From Acidobacteriota bacterium (lineage in GTDB: Bacteria > Acidobacteriota > Terriglobia > Terriglobales > Acidobacteriaceae), in assembly GCA_003225005.1 (NCBI GenBank), contig QIAN01000253.1, positions 1 to 40,295 on the forward strand: a stretch of DNA of 40,295 nt, written 5' to 3'. A program made the translations under genes and the position numbers. The notes beneath the pieces were generated by a model, which saw only the letters and a program-made list of their open reading frames with translations, ran no database searches and had not been told where the DNA came from. Within the stretch, counting starts at the first letter, position 1, and every line of letters starts with the position of its first letter. Shown one piece after another: positions 7,611 through 15,175 of the stretch.

Positions 7611-8066
7611 ATGGCAAGCATACCTATTCAGATTGTTGGCGTAATGACCTCGAGCGAACTGGGCATTGGGGGGGGTCCCATGCCTGGCGGTCCGGAAATC
7701 AGTCACCCGATCGCGCCCGGCGGACCGCCTCCGCAAGTCTGGCCGGGACCGGGTTATCCAACGCACCCGATCGCTCCTGGAGGCACGCCTCCGTATCCAG
7801 CTCATCCGATCGCCCCTGGAGGACCGCCCTTGAGTCCAACGCACCCGATCGTTATCCCCGTGCCGCCCGGTAGCGGGATAAAACCCGAACATCCTATCTA
7901 TTTTCCACCAGGGTATCTGCATCCGGATCATCCCATTGTCATTGTACCGCCACCGCCTGCCGAAGGCGCCAAGCCGCCACCACCCGAAGGCGGCTGGGGT
8001 TATCATCCTGATTACGGCTGGGGTTATTTCCCGCCTGGAGGCGGCAAACCCCAACCGGGAAGCTAG
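7611..8066 (+). CDS. Pro/Gly/His repeat protein (HPIAPGG repeats)
   Basis: The first 20 residues form a hydrophobic beta segment. From about residue 30 on, the sequence is built from repeats of 'HPIAPGGPP' with variable linkers (His-Pro-Ile at least seven times), then a 'PPPPPEGG'-like zone and a Tyr/Trp/Gly-rich end ('GWGYHPDYGWGYFPPGG'). I have seen similar repeats in uncharacterised proteins of tailed phages; their function is unknown and they are probably extended or disordered. There is no signal peptide. The ATG is preceded by an A-rich leader with the G run of the hairpin region 15 bases upstream. The gene opens the lysis-side operon. Confidence 0.75.
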   Translation: MASIPIQIVGVMTSSELGIGGGPMPGGPEISHPIAPGGPPPQVWPGPGYPTHPIAPGGTPPYPAHPIAPGGPPLSPTHPIVIPVPPGSGIKPEHPIYFPPGYLHPDHPIVIVPPPPAEGAKPPPPEGGWGYHPDYGWGYFPPGGGKPQPGS

Positions 8067-8129: not shown

Positions 8130-8393
8130 GTGGCTGAATCTTCTGATTTGATCGTTAAAGTGGGTGCCTCCATTGCGGGAGGCATCCTCATTGCCATGCA
8201 GGGAATGAATTTACAAACCGCCAATACTGTCCGCTCTGAAGCTGAACGGGTGGAAACTGAGACTAGTGAAGAACTCCATTCAATCCGGGAACTGCTGGAA
8301 CGATTCAAAGACAGTCAACAACGTCAAAAAGATATGTTTGAAACTCTGAAAAACATCGAGGCGGGCCACCCAGCGCCATCGCCAACAAAGTAA
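8130..8393 (+). CDS. One-helix membrane protein, holin candidate
   Basis: A GTG start gives 87 residues. One hydrophobic Gly/Ala/Ile/Met segment (residues about 9-27, 'KVGASIAGGILIAMQGM') is followed by a long charged coiled coil and a Pro-rich end. Type III-like holins and other small phage membrane proteins share this layout. The position two genes before an endolysin supports a lysis role, though the beta-helix and HhH genes lie between. Its TAA overlaps the ATG of the next gene (8393), so the two are co-translated. A function other than holin is possible. Confidence 0.55.
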   Translation: MAESSDLIVKVGASIAGGILIAMQGMNLQTANTVRSEAERVETETSEELHSIRELLERFKDSQQRQKDMFETLKNIEAGHPAPSPTK

Positions 8394-9745
8394 TGAAAAT
8401 ACTGCTCCTGTTGTTCCTTGTGCTGCCCCGCCTGGCCCAGGCGGCTGCTAGCGGGGGCCAGGCTGACATTCAGGCAGCCATCAATGCCAGTAGCAATGGA
8501 GGCACCGTGCTGGTGCCCGCAGGCCGCTGGACCTGGACCGATACCCTCACCATTAAGGCACCGGTCACGCTGCAGGGCGAATCAGGGACAACTATTGTGA
8601 ATGGTCGCAATCAGGGACCGCTGATCGTGGTAACACCGAGCACCAGTGGTGTCATTACGATCAAGGGACTATCGATCGAGCAGGGCAACACGACTCCAGA
8701 CTGGAGCGTCAAACATCTGATCGTTTACCATAAGGACGGTGCCCAAAGCGTCGTAGTCAGCTCTTGCCATTTCGCTCTTGCTAGTCACGGAGCACGCATG
8801 GTGGAGTGGGAAACCAACGGCGGACTGATCAGCCATTGCGATTTTACGAGCACTCAGCGCCAAGACACCAGCGGGATCGCCTTTAAAGCCGTGGGGATTC
8901 CCGCGACCTGGACCGCACCCTCGACCATCGGAGCGGCGGGCGATCCTGACGGCAATAAGAACACGTACCTCGAAGACTGCACCTTCAAGGATGTGTTTCT
9001 GCAGGCGCTCGATTTCGATGACAATTCCCGGACGGTCGTCCGTCACTGCACCTTTGACAATTCAGGCACTACCAGTCACGGCGCGGACACTTCGCCCTAT
9101 GGTGTGCGTCAGATCGAGTTTTACGATAACCAGTTCATTTTCACCCTCGGGGGCAACTGCACGCCCAATCCCTATCCCCTGAATCTGAACTACTGGTTTT
9201 ACGTGCGTGGCGGGGTCGGGGTGATCTGCGATAACCTTATGCCGGCAATCAGCTCATGCGCGTGGGGCAACAAGCCGAGTGTCAGCCTGACGGTGTATAA
9301 TATTACGCGCAAGGGTGGCCAGGTGCCCTGTCAGACCAATTATCCGGCATTTCATCAAATTGGTCAGGGGCCGGAAGGAACGACCGACCCGCTCTACATC
9401 TGGGGCAATACCGGTAGCGGGGCGACCCATATCGGGCTGGTGCAGTACAGCCCCGATGAGTGCAATAACAACCAGCAGATCGGCAACTATCTCAAGGAAG
9501 GTCGCGACTATGTGCTGGACAGCAGGCCCAATTATCAGAAGTACACTTACCCGCATCCCTTAGCGGCAGCTGGCCAGCCGCCCAAGCCAACGCCAACGCC
9601 AGGCCCGAGCGCCAGCCCCACACCAACGCCTGCGCCAACCCCAGCGCCCACGGCAACACCGCCGGCACCTAATAAAACCTATCGAATTTGGTTTGATTCT
9701 CTTGGGAATTGGCTTGAGCAGCACCCAGCCACTCCCGATCCATGA
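8393..9745 (+). CDS. Secreted right-handed beta-helix protein, paralogue of the tail spike at 13820-15175
   Basis: The N-terminus is a Sec signal peptide (Met-Lys-Ile-Leu, nine hydrophobic residues, then 'RLAQAAA' with cleavage near residue 17-19). Residues 20-390 form a beta-helix of the pectate-lyase/tail-spike type, opening with 'IQAAINASSNGGTVLVPAG'. The last 55 residues are a Pro/Thr/Ala linker and a short 'YRIWFDSLGNWLEQ' tail. It aligns over most of its length with the minus-strand protein at 13820-15175 (shared 'EDCT', 'HGAD', 'EYYDN/EFYDN', 'PLYIW/PIYIW', 'QGRD/EGRD', 'FTYPHP/YTYPHP'). One copy is secreted and one is virion-type. A secreted polysaccharide-degrading enzyme is plausible; catalytic residues are not identifiable. 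Confidence 0.8.
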   Translation: MKILLLLFLVLPRLAQAAASGGQADIQAAINASSNGGTVLVPAGRWTWTDTLTIKAPVTLQGESGTTIVNGRNQGPLIVVTPSTSGVITIKGLSIEQGNTTPDWSVKHLIVYHKDGAQSVVVSSCHFALASHGARMVEWETNGGLISHCDFTSTQRQDTSGIAFKAVGIPATWTAPSTIGAAGDPDGNKNTYLEDCTFKDVFLQALDFDDNSRTVVRHCTFDNSGTTSHGADTSPYGVRQIEFYDNQFIFTLGGNCTPNPYPLNLNYWFYVRGGVGVICDNLMPAISSCAWGNKPSVSLTVYNITRKGGQVPCQTNYPAFHQIGQGPEGTTDPLYIWGNTGSGATHIGLVQYSPDECNNNQQIGNYLKEGRDYVLDSRPNYQKYTYPHPLAAAGQPPKPTPTPGPSASPTPTPAPTPAPTATPPAPNKTYRIWFDSLGNWLEQHPATPDP

Positions 9746-9778: not shown

Positions 9779-10445
9779 GAGCGAGCCAAAAAACATGAGC
9801 AACCCGAGGCCCATGAGCTTTGCCAAAGTTTGTGACCGAAATTCCTAAGCGTATGAGCGAGCCATGAAAAGGGAGTAATCCATCAATTCAAGAGCGAGCC
9901 AGTTGCGTCAAGAGCAACCCAATTCCCATGAGCTCTGCTACATTGCATGAGCAACCCAAGCAGAGAGGGAGCGAGCCCTAAATGGTAAAGTAACCTATAT
10001 AGACAAGAGCAAGCCCTATCGTGCGAATTAATAAACCCCATCTCCGGAGCGAGCCAAAGGTTGTGAGGTTGCTCGGACAAAACCCATAGGTCGTGAGCAA
10101 GCCATTAGAGAAGATAAACTCGGGGACACGAGCAAGAGCGAGCCAATTGCGTAGAGAAACCCATTATGAGGGAGCGAGCCCTATCGTGCGAACTTACTAG
10201 AGCCCATCTCCGAGGGAGCGAGCCAATAAAGCATGAGCAACCCATAGTCCATGAGCGAGCCTAACAAGAGCGAGCAACCCACTCAATAAGAGCGAGCCTG
10301 AAGAAGCGAGCAACTCACACGCACAGAGCGAGCCAAAAGACACGAGCAACCCAAATGAAATGAGCAAGCCTGAAGAAGCGAGCGATCCACTTAGCAAAAG
10401 CGAGTCCGGCTGGGAAAGAAACCCATACGAACAGAACGAGCCTAT
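9779..10445 (+). repeat. Degenerate tandem array, 18/37-nt period
   Basis: Two 9-mers alternate: GAGCGAGCC (exact at about 9779, 9855, 9892, 9969, 10047, 10136, 10172, 10216, 10253, 10290, 10326) and GAGCAACCC (about 9797, 9912, 9949, 10235, 10272, 10344), with GAGCAAGCC variants (10007, 10095, 10362). Each conserved 9-mer is followed by about 9-10 variable bases, so units recur every 18-20 nt and pairs every 36-40 nt (up to 48). A longer direct repeat containing CCCTATCGTGCGAA occurs at 10007-10055 and 10172-10224. The first two thirds have no open frame. The last units run in 36-nt register into the gene at 10360 and encode SEPxxxSNPxxx. One inverted unit lies near 10067-10075. Confidence 0.85.
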
Positions 10446-11262
10446 TGCAGCTGCTGCGCCTCCAATCAAGATCGGTGCTGAAATCCGGAATGAACTGATC
10501 GACCAGATCATCAAAACCTACGAGCTCAGGAGCGAAGATATCGCCGAGACAGTCGAGCTCTTTTACGATTGCCAGAAACTCAGAATCATGCATGCCAATA
10601 AAAAGGGCAGCGAGCCCTCCAGCCCTATGGTGCAGTGGTTGGGTAAGTGGCTGGAGACTGGCGAAAAGGTGATACACGGTAAGCTCAAAGAATGGATCGA
10701 ATCTGAGCAAAGCCCGTCCGAAAGCCGCTGGGCTTATGCGCAAGCTGGCATCGGCCCGGTACTGGCCTCCGGGCTGGCTGCTCACATTGATGTAACCAAG
10801 GCTGATAGTATCAGCAGCCTGTGGCGCTTCGCCGGGCAGGACCCGACCGCAGATCGTAAAGTCAAAGGTACTAAGTCACCCTACAATGGCAGGTTGAAAA
10901 CTCTCTGCTGGAAAATTGGCGAGAGTTTCGTCAAAGTGTCCGGCCGGGAATCTGCCTTCTACGGCCACTGGTACGCCAAGTTTAAGAGCGACGAAGTTTC
11001 GCGCAACGAGAACGGGCTTTATAGCGCACAAGCGCAGCGCGAACTGGCTAATAAGAAGATCAAGGACGCGCCCACCAAAGCCAAGCTCCAAAGCGGTAAG
11101 CTCACTGACGGTCACCTGCACGCCCGGGCCAAACGCCGGGCCGTAAAATTGTTTTTAGCCCATTACTGGACTGAAGGGCGCAAAGCACGCAACTTGCCGG
11201 TGCGCGCTCCGTACTCCATTGCGATTCTTAAGCACGACGCCATGATCGAGCCGCCAGTATGA
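10360..11262 (+). CDS. HhH protein related to the C-terminal domain of IS110-type transposases
   Basis: Residues 1-30 are continued repeats (SKPEEASDP..., SxSGWERNP...) encoded by the array upstream. Residues 40-120 are helical. 'AQAGIGPVLASGLAAHI' (about 127-143) is a helix-hairpin-helix like that in the IS116/IS110/IS902 C-terminal domain, followed by 'LWRFAGQDPT', 'NGRLKTLCWKIG' and the 'HARAKRRAVKLFLAHYW' helix. The N-terminal DEDD/RuvC catalytic domain of IS110 is absent, so this is not a complete transposase. Similar stand-alone proteins occur in phages, with unknown function; DNA or RNA binding is likely. The frame is open upstream to about 10252 but with no earlier start codon, so the ATG at 10360, itself part of a repeat, is used. 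Confidence 0.75.
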   Translation: MSKPEEASDPLSKSESGWERNPYEQNEPIAAAAPPIKIGAEIRNELIDQIIKTYELRSEDIAETVELFYDCQKLRIMHANKKGSEPSSPMVQWLGKWLETGEKVIHGKLKEWIESEQSPSESRWAYAQAGIGPVLASGLAAHIDVTKADSISSLWRFAGQDPTADRKVKGTKSPYNGRLKTLCWKIGESFVKVSGRESAFYGHWYAKFKSDEVSRNENGLYSAQAQRELANKKIKDAPTKAKLQSGKLTDGHLHARAKRRAVKLFLAHYWTEGRKARNLPVRAPYSIAILKHDAMIEPPV

Positions 11263-11274
11263 GCGCGTAGTAAT

Positions 11275-11718
11275 ATGGTCATAGACCAAAGAAGCGAACG
11301 CAACATTAAAACGCTCAACCCCAAGGTGCAGCCGCTGGCGCGGGCCCTGATCGAGACGGCTACTGCCCAAGGCATTAATGTCAAGGTAATCGCCAGCCTG
11401 CGCACTTACGACGAACAGAATGCCCTTTATGCACAAGGCCGCACCAAGCCAGGTCGGATTGTCACTAAAGCTAAAGGCGGTCAGTCGAATCATAATTTCG
11501 GGACCGCCTTTGATGTAGGGATCTTCAGCGCAGACTCCCAAAAGTATTTCGGGGAATCGCCCGATTACGCGAAGGTTGGCGTAATTGGCGAATCGCTCGG
11601 GCTGGAATGGGGCGGCCGCTGGAAATTTGTGGATGAACCGCATTTTCAATTTAACCAGGGTCGGAGTCTGGCCCAACTGCGGACTGCTTACGAACAGACC
11701 GGAGATGCCTTGGCCTAA
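11275..11718 (+). CDS. Endolysin: M15-family L-alanyl-D-glutamate peptidase
   Basis: The enzyme cuts the Ala-Glu bond in the peptidoglycan stem peptide. All zinc-site motifs of the VanY/M15 fold are present: 'SLRTYDEQ' near residues 41-48, 'SNHNFGTAFDVG' with His73 and Asp80, and 'EPHFQF' with Glu121 and His123. The length of 147 matches the single-domain endolysins of T5-like and Listeria phages, with no cell-wall-binding domain. There is no signal peptide, so export relies on a holin (candidate at 8130). It is the last plus-strand gene, and its stop overlaps the 3' end of a small minus-strand ORF, where the two transcription units converge. Confidence 0.92.
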   Translation: MVIDQRSERNIKTLNPKVQPLARALIETATAQGINVKVIASLRTYDEQNALYAQGRTKPGRIVTKAKGGQSNHNFGTAFDVGIFSADSQKYFGESPDYAKVGVIGESLGLEWGGRWKFVDEPHFQFNQGRSLAQLRTAYEQTGDALA

Positions 11719-13819: not shown

Positions 13820-15175
13820 CTAAAACCGGGTTACGCGCGCTCTCAAGGCCAGTTTATTACGGGTCAAAGCCGAAGCTGCCCAGGTGCCGCTGACGACCAC
13901 TTCTAAGGGTGGGGTGGACTGGGTGCGGAACGGATGCGGATAAGTGAAACTGGTATAACCCGGTTTTGGGCCCAGGATAAAATCGCGTCCCTGCTGGATA
14001 AAGCCTGCACTGGAGAGTCCATGACCACAACTGTCGGTACCCCAGTCGTTCAGTGATAAAATGTTAGCAGCCGCACCCACGGTATTGGCCCAGATATAAA
14101 TAGGTTCAAGGGATTGGGTAATCGGAAATGTGCCCAGAGAAGTAACACAATTTGTGATGGTTACTCCGTCTGAGCCCCAGCCCGCCTGATAAGGACTGGG
14201 ATAGCTCAAAGGGCACCCGAATTGATTGGTGCCGCGCTGCACTGCCCAATCGCCGGCGGTCCAGGTCGCTTTGCTGCCCCACCATTGGGAAACATTGTCC
14301 GGGATGGCGTTGCGGGTAATAATCATGGTGCCGCCACGCATGTTGTACCACCAGGAGAGGTTTTGCGGATAATTGTTGGGGTCTAAAGTCGCGCCGCCAT
14401 TGATACCCAACGTATGGGTGAAGGTGTTATCGTAATACTCGATGTGGCGCCCGCCCTTTTTACTGCTGTCAGCCCCATGGGCGGTCGAGCCGGTATCGAA
14501 AAGCTGGCATTTGCGCACCACCAGCCGGGCCCCATCATCCAGATCCAGAGTTTGGCTCAGGCAATTGTAGATGGTGCAGTCTTCAATATAGAGATTGATA
14601 TTGCCGCCGGTATCCAGGGTGCCGGTGGTCGGCGAACTTTCCCACAGCCGGACATTATCTTGCAGGACCCGAATCCAGTTTACCGTAGTATTATCTGTGC
14701 CAATAGGATTAGCCCAAACCGTACAGTTATAGAAGAGCCCCCCTGAAGATTGCCAATCGATGCACCGGTTCGCGCCGGTAAAGGTAAGTTCAAAATAACA
14801 GTCATGCACGATAATCGGATGCGGCGAATTGCCGCCCGTCAGCATCCATTCGGTAGCGGTACCGCTGATATACACAAAGGCCAGCCGCGAGAGCACCACA
14901 TGCGCGCTGGCATTAGAGGTAATAGATAAAATGCGCACATTGGAGGCAAAATTGATGATCGCGCCCGGCACCAGCGCAGTGTGCACCCCACCCGCTTCGG
15001 AGGTGCCGCCGCCGCTCCACATGGTTTGGCCTTGCAAGGTGATGGCTTTGGTAATTGTCAGGGTGGTTGACCAGGTCCAGGTGCCGGTCGGCACAATGAT
15101 GACATCTCCGTCAGCCGCCTGGGCATCGTGAATGCTTTGAATATTGGTAACGCTACCGTCAGAGGTAAAGGTCAT
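13820..15175 (-). CDS. Beta-helix tail spike, paralogue of the secreted protein at 8393-9745
   Basis: This 451-residue protein has the same beta-helix as 8393-9745 but no signal peptide; it begins 'MTFTSDGSVTNIQSIHDAQ'. Conserved blocks appear in the same order ('NLYIEDCTIYN', 'LDDGARLVVRKC', 'HGADSS', 'HIEYYDNTF', 'EPIYIWANT', 'QQGRDFILG', 'FTYPHP'). The pectate-lyase-like helix probably binds or degrades surface glycans during adsorption. The extreme C-terminus ('TRNKLALRARVTRF') replaces the Pro-rich tail of the paralogue. An intrinsic terminator ends one base before its start codon, so it has no Shine-Dalgarno and may be made at low level by read-through or from an internal start. Confidence 0.75.
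   Translation of the reverse strand: MTFTSDGSVTNIQSIHDAQAADGDVIIVPTGTWTWSTTLTITKAITLQGQTMWSGGGTSEAGGVHTALVPGAIINFASNVRILSITSNASAHVVLSRLAFVYISGTATEWMLTGGNSPHPIIVHDCYFELTFTGANRCIDWQSSGGLFYNCTVWANPIGTDNTTVNWIRVLQDNVRLWESSPTTGTLDTGGNINLYIEDCTIYNCLSQTLDLDDGARLVVRKCQLFDTGSTAHGADSSKKGGRHIEYYDNTFTHTLGINGGATLDPNNYPQNLSWWYNMRGGTMIITRNAIPDNVSQWWGSKATWTAGDWAVQRGTNQFGCPLSYPSPYQAGWGSDGVTITNCVTSLGTFPITQSLEPIYIWANTVGAAANILSLNDWGTDSCGHGLSSAGFIQQGRDFILGPKPGYTSFTYPHPFRTQSTPPLEVVVSGTWAASALTRNKLALRARVTRF

Follow-up and report, generated by a model that had tools for sequence, protein, structure and literature searches.

Tandem Interspaced Guide RNA (TIGR) arrays, in the account of Faure et al. 2025 (PMC12045711, in the parts drawn upon here), consist of two alternating repeats of 8-12 nt separated by spacers that are normally 9 nt and exceptionally as long as 12 nt, and they are located upstream and/or downstream of a tas gene. 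The Tas protein binds the array RNA, which is processed into tigRNAs of 36 nt by cuts in the middle of the edge repeats; in a tigRNA, spacer A pairs with one DNA strand and spacer B with the other. Both repeats carry a box C/box D pair, and a further covarying pair is present in the edge repeat of TasR systems. The arrays described there start with a 5′-truncated edge repeat and finish with a 3′-truncated one, followed by a terminator. The same paper leaves open, in its Discussion, the natural targets and the role of the nuclease-less TasA; a review on TIGR-Tas is also available (PMC12385481, consulted in part). No report of a natural TIGR target was found among the matches listed for the open-licence literature, which comprised this primary paper, that review, and passing mentions; subscription journals lay mostly outside this search, and absence is not proven.

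The window, i.e., the whole stretch of 40,295 bases that was analysed, encodes among other proteins a major head protein, a terminase, an Erf-like protein, and a beta-helix protein (Pfam/PHROGs) and is therefore a contig of a tailed phage; it was binned with a genome of 7.9 Mb. The protein cluster containing its tasA product comprises 10 contigs, the longest of 40,433 bases, so the virus recurs. Among 101 genomes (its own and 100 relatives), a strong TasA match was present in its own only, with one other at E 8.3e-4; tasA is the phage's gene rather than that of the host lineage. Directly downstream of tasA lies a gene for an M15/VanY-type peptidase (11275-11718), probably an endolysin, and the region is flanked by two weakly recognised right-handed beta-helix proteins on opposite strands (8393-9745 and 13820-15175), possibly tail-associated. 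A 39-bp tandem repeat of 2.5 copies (7756-7851) is located in the ORF 7611-8066.

The locus adds a new TIGR-TasA member to those known, with a somewhat unusual array. Its reading as a TIGR-TasA system whose array holds the guides, which we regard as almost certain, is based in this analysis on array anatomy, protein family, fold match, covariation, and the conserved pairing of gene and array. As in the dual-repeat TIGR-TasA loci of PMC12045711 (e.g., that of Flavonifractor plautii, as presented there), a solo Nop-type protein adjoins a two-repeat array with spacers of about 9 nt in a phage context. The features are collected in Table 1.

Table 1. Features of the TIGR-TasA locus, in coordinates of the window.
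Feature	Position	Strand	Basis
Dual-repeat TIGR array	9779-10442	+	motif positions, segmentation, shuffles; same-kind arrays in relatives
First edge repeat, GAGCGAGCC	9779..9787	+	segmentation
Irregular stretch, units 7-11; loops of 14, 21, 14, 9, and 16 nt	10007..10215	+	borders by eye
Last edge repeat, GAACGAGCC, within tasA	10434..10442	+	segmentation
Overlap: final array units double as code for the TasA N-terminal tail (low confidence, S-x-P hexapeptide-like)	10360..10442	+	ORFs, motif positions, segmentation, pLDDT
tasA, TIGR-associated protein of 300 aa; Nop/IS110-like RNA-binding region at ~62-299, nuclease domain not detected	10360..11262	+	NF052498, solved structures, model and fold search, Pfam

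Two 9-mers recur in the array, GAGCGAGCC with 11 exact copies and GAGCAACCC with 6, all 17 on the + strand, and neither has an exact copy on either strand of the remaining window. Neighbouring exact copies 18-20 nt apart are of opposite type in 8/8 pairs and those 36-37 nt apart are of like type in 4/4, so that the alternation is independent of any model. A chain model resolves 9779-10442 into 18 copies of the edge repeat (GAGCGAGCC type) and, between them, 17 of the loop repeat (GAGCAACCC type), which makes 17 dual-spacer units with the edge type at both ends; the final unit borders were drawn by eye where the array is irregular. The model, in which alternation is built in, scored 221.7, whereas 300 dinucleotide-preserving shuffles scored 17.6 on average and 37.9 at most, and none of them contained more than 2 exact copies of the 9-mers. 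An earlier note, made on the letters of the window, had described an array of alternating 9-mers and had proposed shuffling as a check; by the exact copies, the model-free alternation, the 18 + 17 elements, and the shuffles, the array is real. Tandem Repeats Finder detects the regular 3′ part alone (10253-10404), so that the tandem-repeat search likewise proposed there agrees with the array in this segment and fails for the rest. Since coverage is confined to that segment, a simple tandem repeat was rejected, and so was a CRISPR array, there being no long (25-36 nt) identical repeats with similar-sized spacers; both exclusions had already been made in the earlier note. Rfam gave 0 matches at the gathering threshold among 4227 families.

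The array fits the published pattern of alternating 8-12-nt repeats and spacers of about 9 nt (PMC12045711, as far as drawn upon), save for loops of 14-21 nt in units 7, 8, 9, and 11 as drawn. The distance from edge to edge is exactly 36 nt in 6/17 units and 36-41 nt in 15/17, and the two longest units, of 44 and 48 nt, owe their length to long loop repeats (16 and 21 nt). Loop repeats measure 12, 14, 21, 14, and 16 nt in units 2, 7, 8, 9, and 11, and the loop of unit 9 lacks the CC end. Units of 36-48 nt and loops of 9-21 nt within one array distinguish the locus from the TIGR-TasA systems of PMC12045711, in whose description repeats are conserved within a locus. Some units of this irregular array may have decayed. 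Spacer A is common to units 14 and 16, and spacer A together with most of spacer B is common to units 7 and 11; the latter two have like spacers and unlike loops (14 versus 16 nt), as if a unit had been copied and only the spacers and box ends retained. At both the 5′ and the 3′ end of the array stands an edge repeat which is seemingly complete over 9 nt. No terminator-like site was found on the + strand at the 3′ end, where the array enters tasA.

The adjoining protein belongs to the Tas family. It scores 149.6 bits with the NCBIfam model NF052498 “TIGR_Tas_endo” (TIGR-Tas system RNA-guided endonuclease; cut-off 100), and three homologues score 145.8-147.8. In a phmmer search of solved proteins the matches were TasR (9mty, E 5.4e-21), TasH (21kl, E 4.1e-15), and, third, a glycoside hydrolase at a chance-like E 0.0092. 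An AlphaFold2 model built on 33 sequences has a mean pLDDT of 82.2, and all 11 Foldseek matches at E ≤0.001 are TasR or TasH chains, with TM-scores by query length of 0.47-0.56. The TasH structures of 2026 (21kl, 9vzx, and others) are named here by their PDB titles. Pfam at E 0.01 gave no hit for the ORF, and no RuvC, HNH, DEDD, or Transposase_20 domain was detected. Because its sequence and fold match TasR and TasH while Pfam shows no nuclease domain, the protein is, judged by sequence and predicted structure, TasA in the terms of PMC12045711, and the “endonuclease” of the NF052498 name is unfitting here. The homology with TasR (9mty) and TasH (21kl, 9vzx, and others) lies in the Nop region; unlike them, the window protein has no detected N-terminal RuvC or HNH and carries instead a low-confidence tail of about 40 residues. 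In the model the first ~39 residues are of low confidence (pLDDT <50 at residues 10-20, 26-30, and 32-38), and helices follow. The “HhH protein” of the earlier note is better called a TIGR-associated (Nop-domain) protein.

The same protein raises the question of an IS110-like element or a remnant of one. PHROG 4285, labelled “transposase,” matches TasA at E 4.3e-36, and the next structural neighbours after TasR and TasH are the IS621 and ISCro4 recombinases, so that a related fold is shared in the RNA-binding part. Against this stand the absence of any Pfam hit at E 0.01, and thus of a detected DEDD or Transposase_20 domain, the better agreement with TasR and TasH in both sequence and fold, and the array itself, since an IS110 bridge RNA is a single unit in the comparison made in PMC12045711 (seen in part) and 17 units are present here. 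An IS110 origin is in our judgement extremely improbable, and the “transposase” label is understandable given the IS110 kinship of the family. As PHROG 4285 applies this label to the Tas family, PHROG-based phage annotations may hide TIGR systems.

Relatives of the locus bear out both the gene-array pair and the structure of the repeats. A search of viral contigs found 89 stretches, from which 80 loci with an encoded relative were retained, several of them near-copies of one another; one (L009) is the window's own virus, with 100% identity over 10.9 kb. At least four edge-like repeats in array context are present in 68/80 loci, the window's own virus counted, and fewer than four in 12/80. The array therefore accompanies the gene in most viral loci; the earlier note had named related phages with the gene and no array as a refutation, and the outcome is in its favour. 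Two alternating GA......C motifs were found in 41/80 loci, pairing not being a criterion, and in 39/41 of these both motifs retain a Watson-Crick pair between positions 3 and 8. In 34/41 one motif has the pairs 3-8 and 4-7 and the other 3-8 only, which is the split expected of edge and loop repeats; in 5 both motifs have both, and in 2 one motif has neither. Eight distinct edge types have pairs 3-8 and 4-7 in all rows (G-U counted), with two-sided changes in 8 cells, a figure matched by 0/500 shuffles, and 9 loop types have 3-8 in 9/9 and 4-7 in 1/9. These rows are clades, not independent events, and were hand-picked: four of the 12 commonest types were dropped, namely GAGAGAACC, which is a loop elsewhere, and three that do not keep 3-8 (GAATGAACC, GAATGAGCC, and GAACGAACC), so that full pairing on the picked rows is flattered and the 41-locus count is the fairer figure. 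The edge repeats of the relatives covary as TasR edge repeats do; the box C/D pair in both repeats and the extra edge pair, the latter published for TasR arrays (PMC12045711, in the part consulted), are thus both found in them.

In 28 non-redundant arrays with 385 units, read by a parser that took half-unit steps of 16-20 nt only and to which long loops are invisible, spacers of 9 nt number 369 for A and 378 for B. An A is the first base of 341/369 and 338/378 of these, respectively. With this leading A counted in, GAGCGAGCCA is the better form of the repeat (CCA box C), and the variable bases after it number 8. Edge distances of 34-40 nt lying outside genes in the viral loci, the window's virus included, are exactly 36 in 447/600 cases, as compared with 6/14 unit lengths of the same range in the window. 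The window array is looser than most of its relatives' arrays; loose arrays also occur in some of these, e.g., in L055, L063, and L067.

Short, regularly spaced sites adjoining a nucleic-acid-binding protein could also be double-stranded DNA bound by that neighbour, as an iteron-type origin or as a centromere-like or packaging site, and a ParB-like gene lies beside some published TasA loci (PMC12045711, among those presented there). Two unlike motifs that alternate and covary at 3-8 and 4-7 argue against such a role, as do spacers that are mostly 9 nt in relatives and the strand of the exact copies, which is always that of the gene in the window and almost always so in the listed relatives, where L027, L034, and L055 have one opposite-strand copy each. 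No ParB-like gene was found among the 22 window ORFs scanned (Pfam and/or PHROGs). We consider a DNA-binding array very improbable. Two suggestions of the earlier note, an iteron-type origin and a passive binding scaffold, find no support, and a third, an RNA partner of the adjacent protein, was right in kind, array type and protein family both being TIGR-Tas; that the variable 9-mers are guides had been missed.

The array lies upstream of tasA on the same strand and overlaps its 5′ end by 83 nt, and between 10360 and the conserved core there is no other ATG, GTG, or TTG in the tasA frame. An array 3′ end that is also tasA coding sequence is a further difference from the TIGR-TasA loci as presented in PMC12045711. 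The earlier note had called the array noncoding over most of its length, and this is correct for all except 10360-10442, which is inside the downstream ORF. Translated in the tasA frame, the final 83 nt give S-x-P hexapeptides, and the spacing of the elements is exactly 18 from 10272 to 10434; the array could accordingly be the remains of a repetitive coding region, with SEPxxxSNPxxx hexapeptides at the N-terminus of the protein and frameshifted, noncoding sequence upstream. Yet many 9-mers remain intact in stretches where none of the three frames is open, and the intervening bases differ. The relatives contradict such a decay too, since their arrays are mostly outside the gene: of the 62 array-bearing loci among 74 distinct ones, 40 have the array downstream only, 12 upstream only, 7 on both sides, and, counted from the most upstream start codon, 3 upstream with repeats that extend into the open frame at the N-terminus (L009, which is the window's virus, L016, and L069). 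Decayed coding sequence is therefore given a very low probability. Repeat-like tails in another reading frame occur in homologues such as P0057 (N-terminal) and P0110 (C-terminal), among others. The coding role of the array sequence looks incidental.

For the mode of action, we infer transcription, processing, dimer formation, and DNA binding from the published TIGR system. The array would be transcribed from the + strand as a precursor, and cuts within the edge repeats would yield tigRNAs of about 36 nt, each presumably consisting of spacer A, loop, and spacer B flanked by two half edge repeats. One tigRNA would be held by a TasA dimer via both short repeats, with spacer A pairing with one DNA strand and spacer B with the other over a predicted site of 8+8 to 9+9 bp (16-18 bp). 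As it has no nuclease domain, TasA most likely binds and bends DNA without cutting it and would thereby block expression or replication of the target. The purpose of the system could be the silencing of rival mobile elements, a tentative proposal that rests on one candidate target in a relative. More generally, it is possible, if somewhat short of probable, that temperate phages use their TIGR-TasA arrays as weapons against other elements integrated in the same host, where a tigRNA would lead TasA to the early genes of a rival prophage or satellite and so silence it. CRISPR-Cas arrays likewise have repeats separated by unique guides; they differ in that the locus has two alternating repeats of about 9 nt, split spacers of about 9 nt, another effector family, and no adaptation gene in the 22 ORFs of the window that were scanned. 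IS110/IS621 bridge-RNA recombinases differ in the DEDD domain, which is not detected in the window system, and in using one bridge RNA instead of an array. Loops of 9-21 nt that are seemingly tolerated and an array end that doubles as code bear on how constrained a tigRNA is, and the interest of the locus comes mainly from the target question that it opens.

From the cut rule with 8-nt 3′ overhangs, as given in the part of PMC12045711 drawn upon, the target was derived here as spacer A followed by the reverse complement of spacer B, with a gap of 0-2. For the window units, the best true-orientation site in the window outside the array has 3 mismatches, and one wrong-orientation control reached 2. 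A search with 397 units (381 from 28 relatives' arrays and 16 out of 17 from the window) against 727 kb of related loci plus the window, with parsed arrays masked and one half required to be exact, gave 0 exact and 14 one-mismatch sites, as compared with 1 and 27, 0 and 25, and 0 and 18 in wrong-orientation controls and means of 0.6 and 21.7 with partners shuffled. In the metagenome-assembled genome (MAG) of the window, units 7 (equal to 11 apart from borders) and 10 had 0 hits over the whole genome. Forty stretches of it, chosen around the stronger of its 88 integrase matches and totalling 435 kb, contained 0 true-orientation sites with at most one mismatch for all 17 units (26 border variants) and one site each for 2/3 controls. 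In viral contigs, units 10, 8, 15, and 1 hit 27, 24, 85, and 38 stretches; 3 of these 174, all of which were examined, had a second unit at one mismatch, and one-mismatch hits numbered 8 in the true orientation versus 6 in one control. These second-unit hits are chance, and no recurrent target was found there.

Other hosts were searched as well. Seven units of a Halomonas NO4 prophage, read by eye, had 0 sites at 0-1 mismatch in 14 stretches (227 kb), and 24 parsed units of a Gemmatimonadetes MAG had none in 4 stretches (17.5 kb), a weak search with edge and loop labels swapped in part of the first stretch. Three units of a Solibacteraceae MAG, read by eye, had one one-mismatch site in 25 stretches (382 kb) and 0 in three controls; this site (L403:13188) lies ~3 kb from an integrase match, is GC-rich, and is near chance by our own estimate. 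A scan of genomes for the system gave 5 loci, of which one (L092), identical to the viral-contig locus L014, is on a scaffold of 6.69 Mb from the soil isolate Acidobacteriaceae bacterium KBS 96. There, tasA is followed by a 5-unit array in a prophage at ~0.13-0.14 Mb. Exact predicted targets (gap 0-2) in the KBS 96 genome number one for unit 1 and none for units 2-5, and the reversed-pattern control had none for all five; 0.034 exact hits are expected by composition for the five units, or ~0.07-0.08 together with the other exact host searches (hand estimate). Nothing comparable was found in Halomonas NO4 or in the MAGs, of which mostly integrase regions were examined.

The unit 1 site matches at 16/16 positions without gap (6,329,962-6,329,977 of KB906767.1; L096:1501-1516) and is far from the tasA prophage. 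It corresponds to codons ~9-14 of an 86-aa HTH_17 gene of another integrated, phage-like element, the gene being the second in a leftward gene set whose layout suggests that it is early. This set diverges from an HTH_3 repressor gene and a Phage_integrase gene, and the integrase gene ends beside a tRNA-Glu. In the 100 kb around the site, the best site of unit 4 matches at 14/16 positions with gap 0 (6,329,052, ~0.9 kb off), both mismatches being at the outer end of spacer A, and the best site of unit 5 at 13/16 (6,329,237), a level common by chance. The two sites share one open frame, the next in the leftward direction (L098:18961-19734), for which Pfam gave no hit. The same 100 kb contain, in true orientation, 1 exact, 2 two-mismatch, and 10 three-mismatch sites, as compared with 0/0/4, 0/1/13, and 0/0/8 in wrong-orientation controls and 0/0/35 with 20 mismatched partner pairs. 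With gap 0, the lowest numbers of mismatches in the element for units 1-5 are 0, 5, 4, 2, and 3, so that units 2 and 3 do not match it. In statistics framed post hoc, after the unit 1 hit had been seen, and taking the element as given, letter-shuffled spacers of the other four units reached ≤2 mismatches in 1.7% of 3,000 trials, with a second unit at ≤3 in addition in 0.27%, and letter-shuffled spacers gave a mismatch sum as low as that observed in 0.57% (3,000 trials).

Eighteen further integrase regions of KBS 96 (360 kb) contained two 2-mismatch sites, neither with gap 0, and the controls 2, 3, and 2. In viral contigs, units 4 and 1 (gap 0) hit 14 and 33 stretches; in comparison with an 8-kb part of the element, these showed nothing similar at the DNA level and two weak matches at the protein level. 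These stretches are not recognisably related to the element, and the candidate is thus unreplicated there. As a candidate natural target of a TIGR system, the KBS 96 sites are suggestive and unreplicated, to be taken, with somewhat less than even confidence, as a lead and not as a result. The natural-target question would become directly testable in an isolate that has both a TIGR-TasA prophage and, in a second integrated element, a candidate target.

Farther leftward, the KBS 96 element encodes a small terminase, a major capsid protein, and a prohead protease. A 26-27 bp copy of the 3′ end of the tRNA-Glu recurs at 6,321,951 and 6,319,361, by which the element is bounded at about 10.2 or 12.8 kb. 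In its size and head genes it may resemble capsid-forming phage satellites, and it could just as well be a shrunken prophage. Three copies of the tRNA-Glu 3′ end in this region (L098 9345-9388 and 11937-11980, L099 2103-2131) suggest tandem compact phage-like islands at one tRNA.
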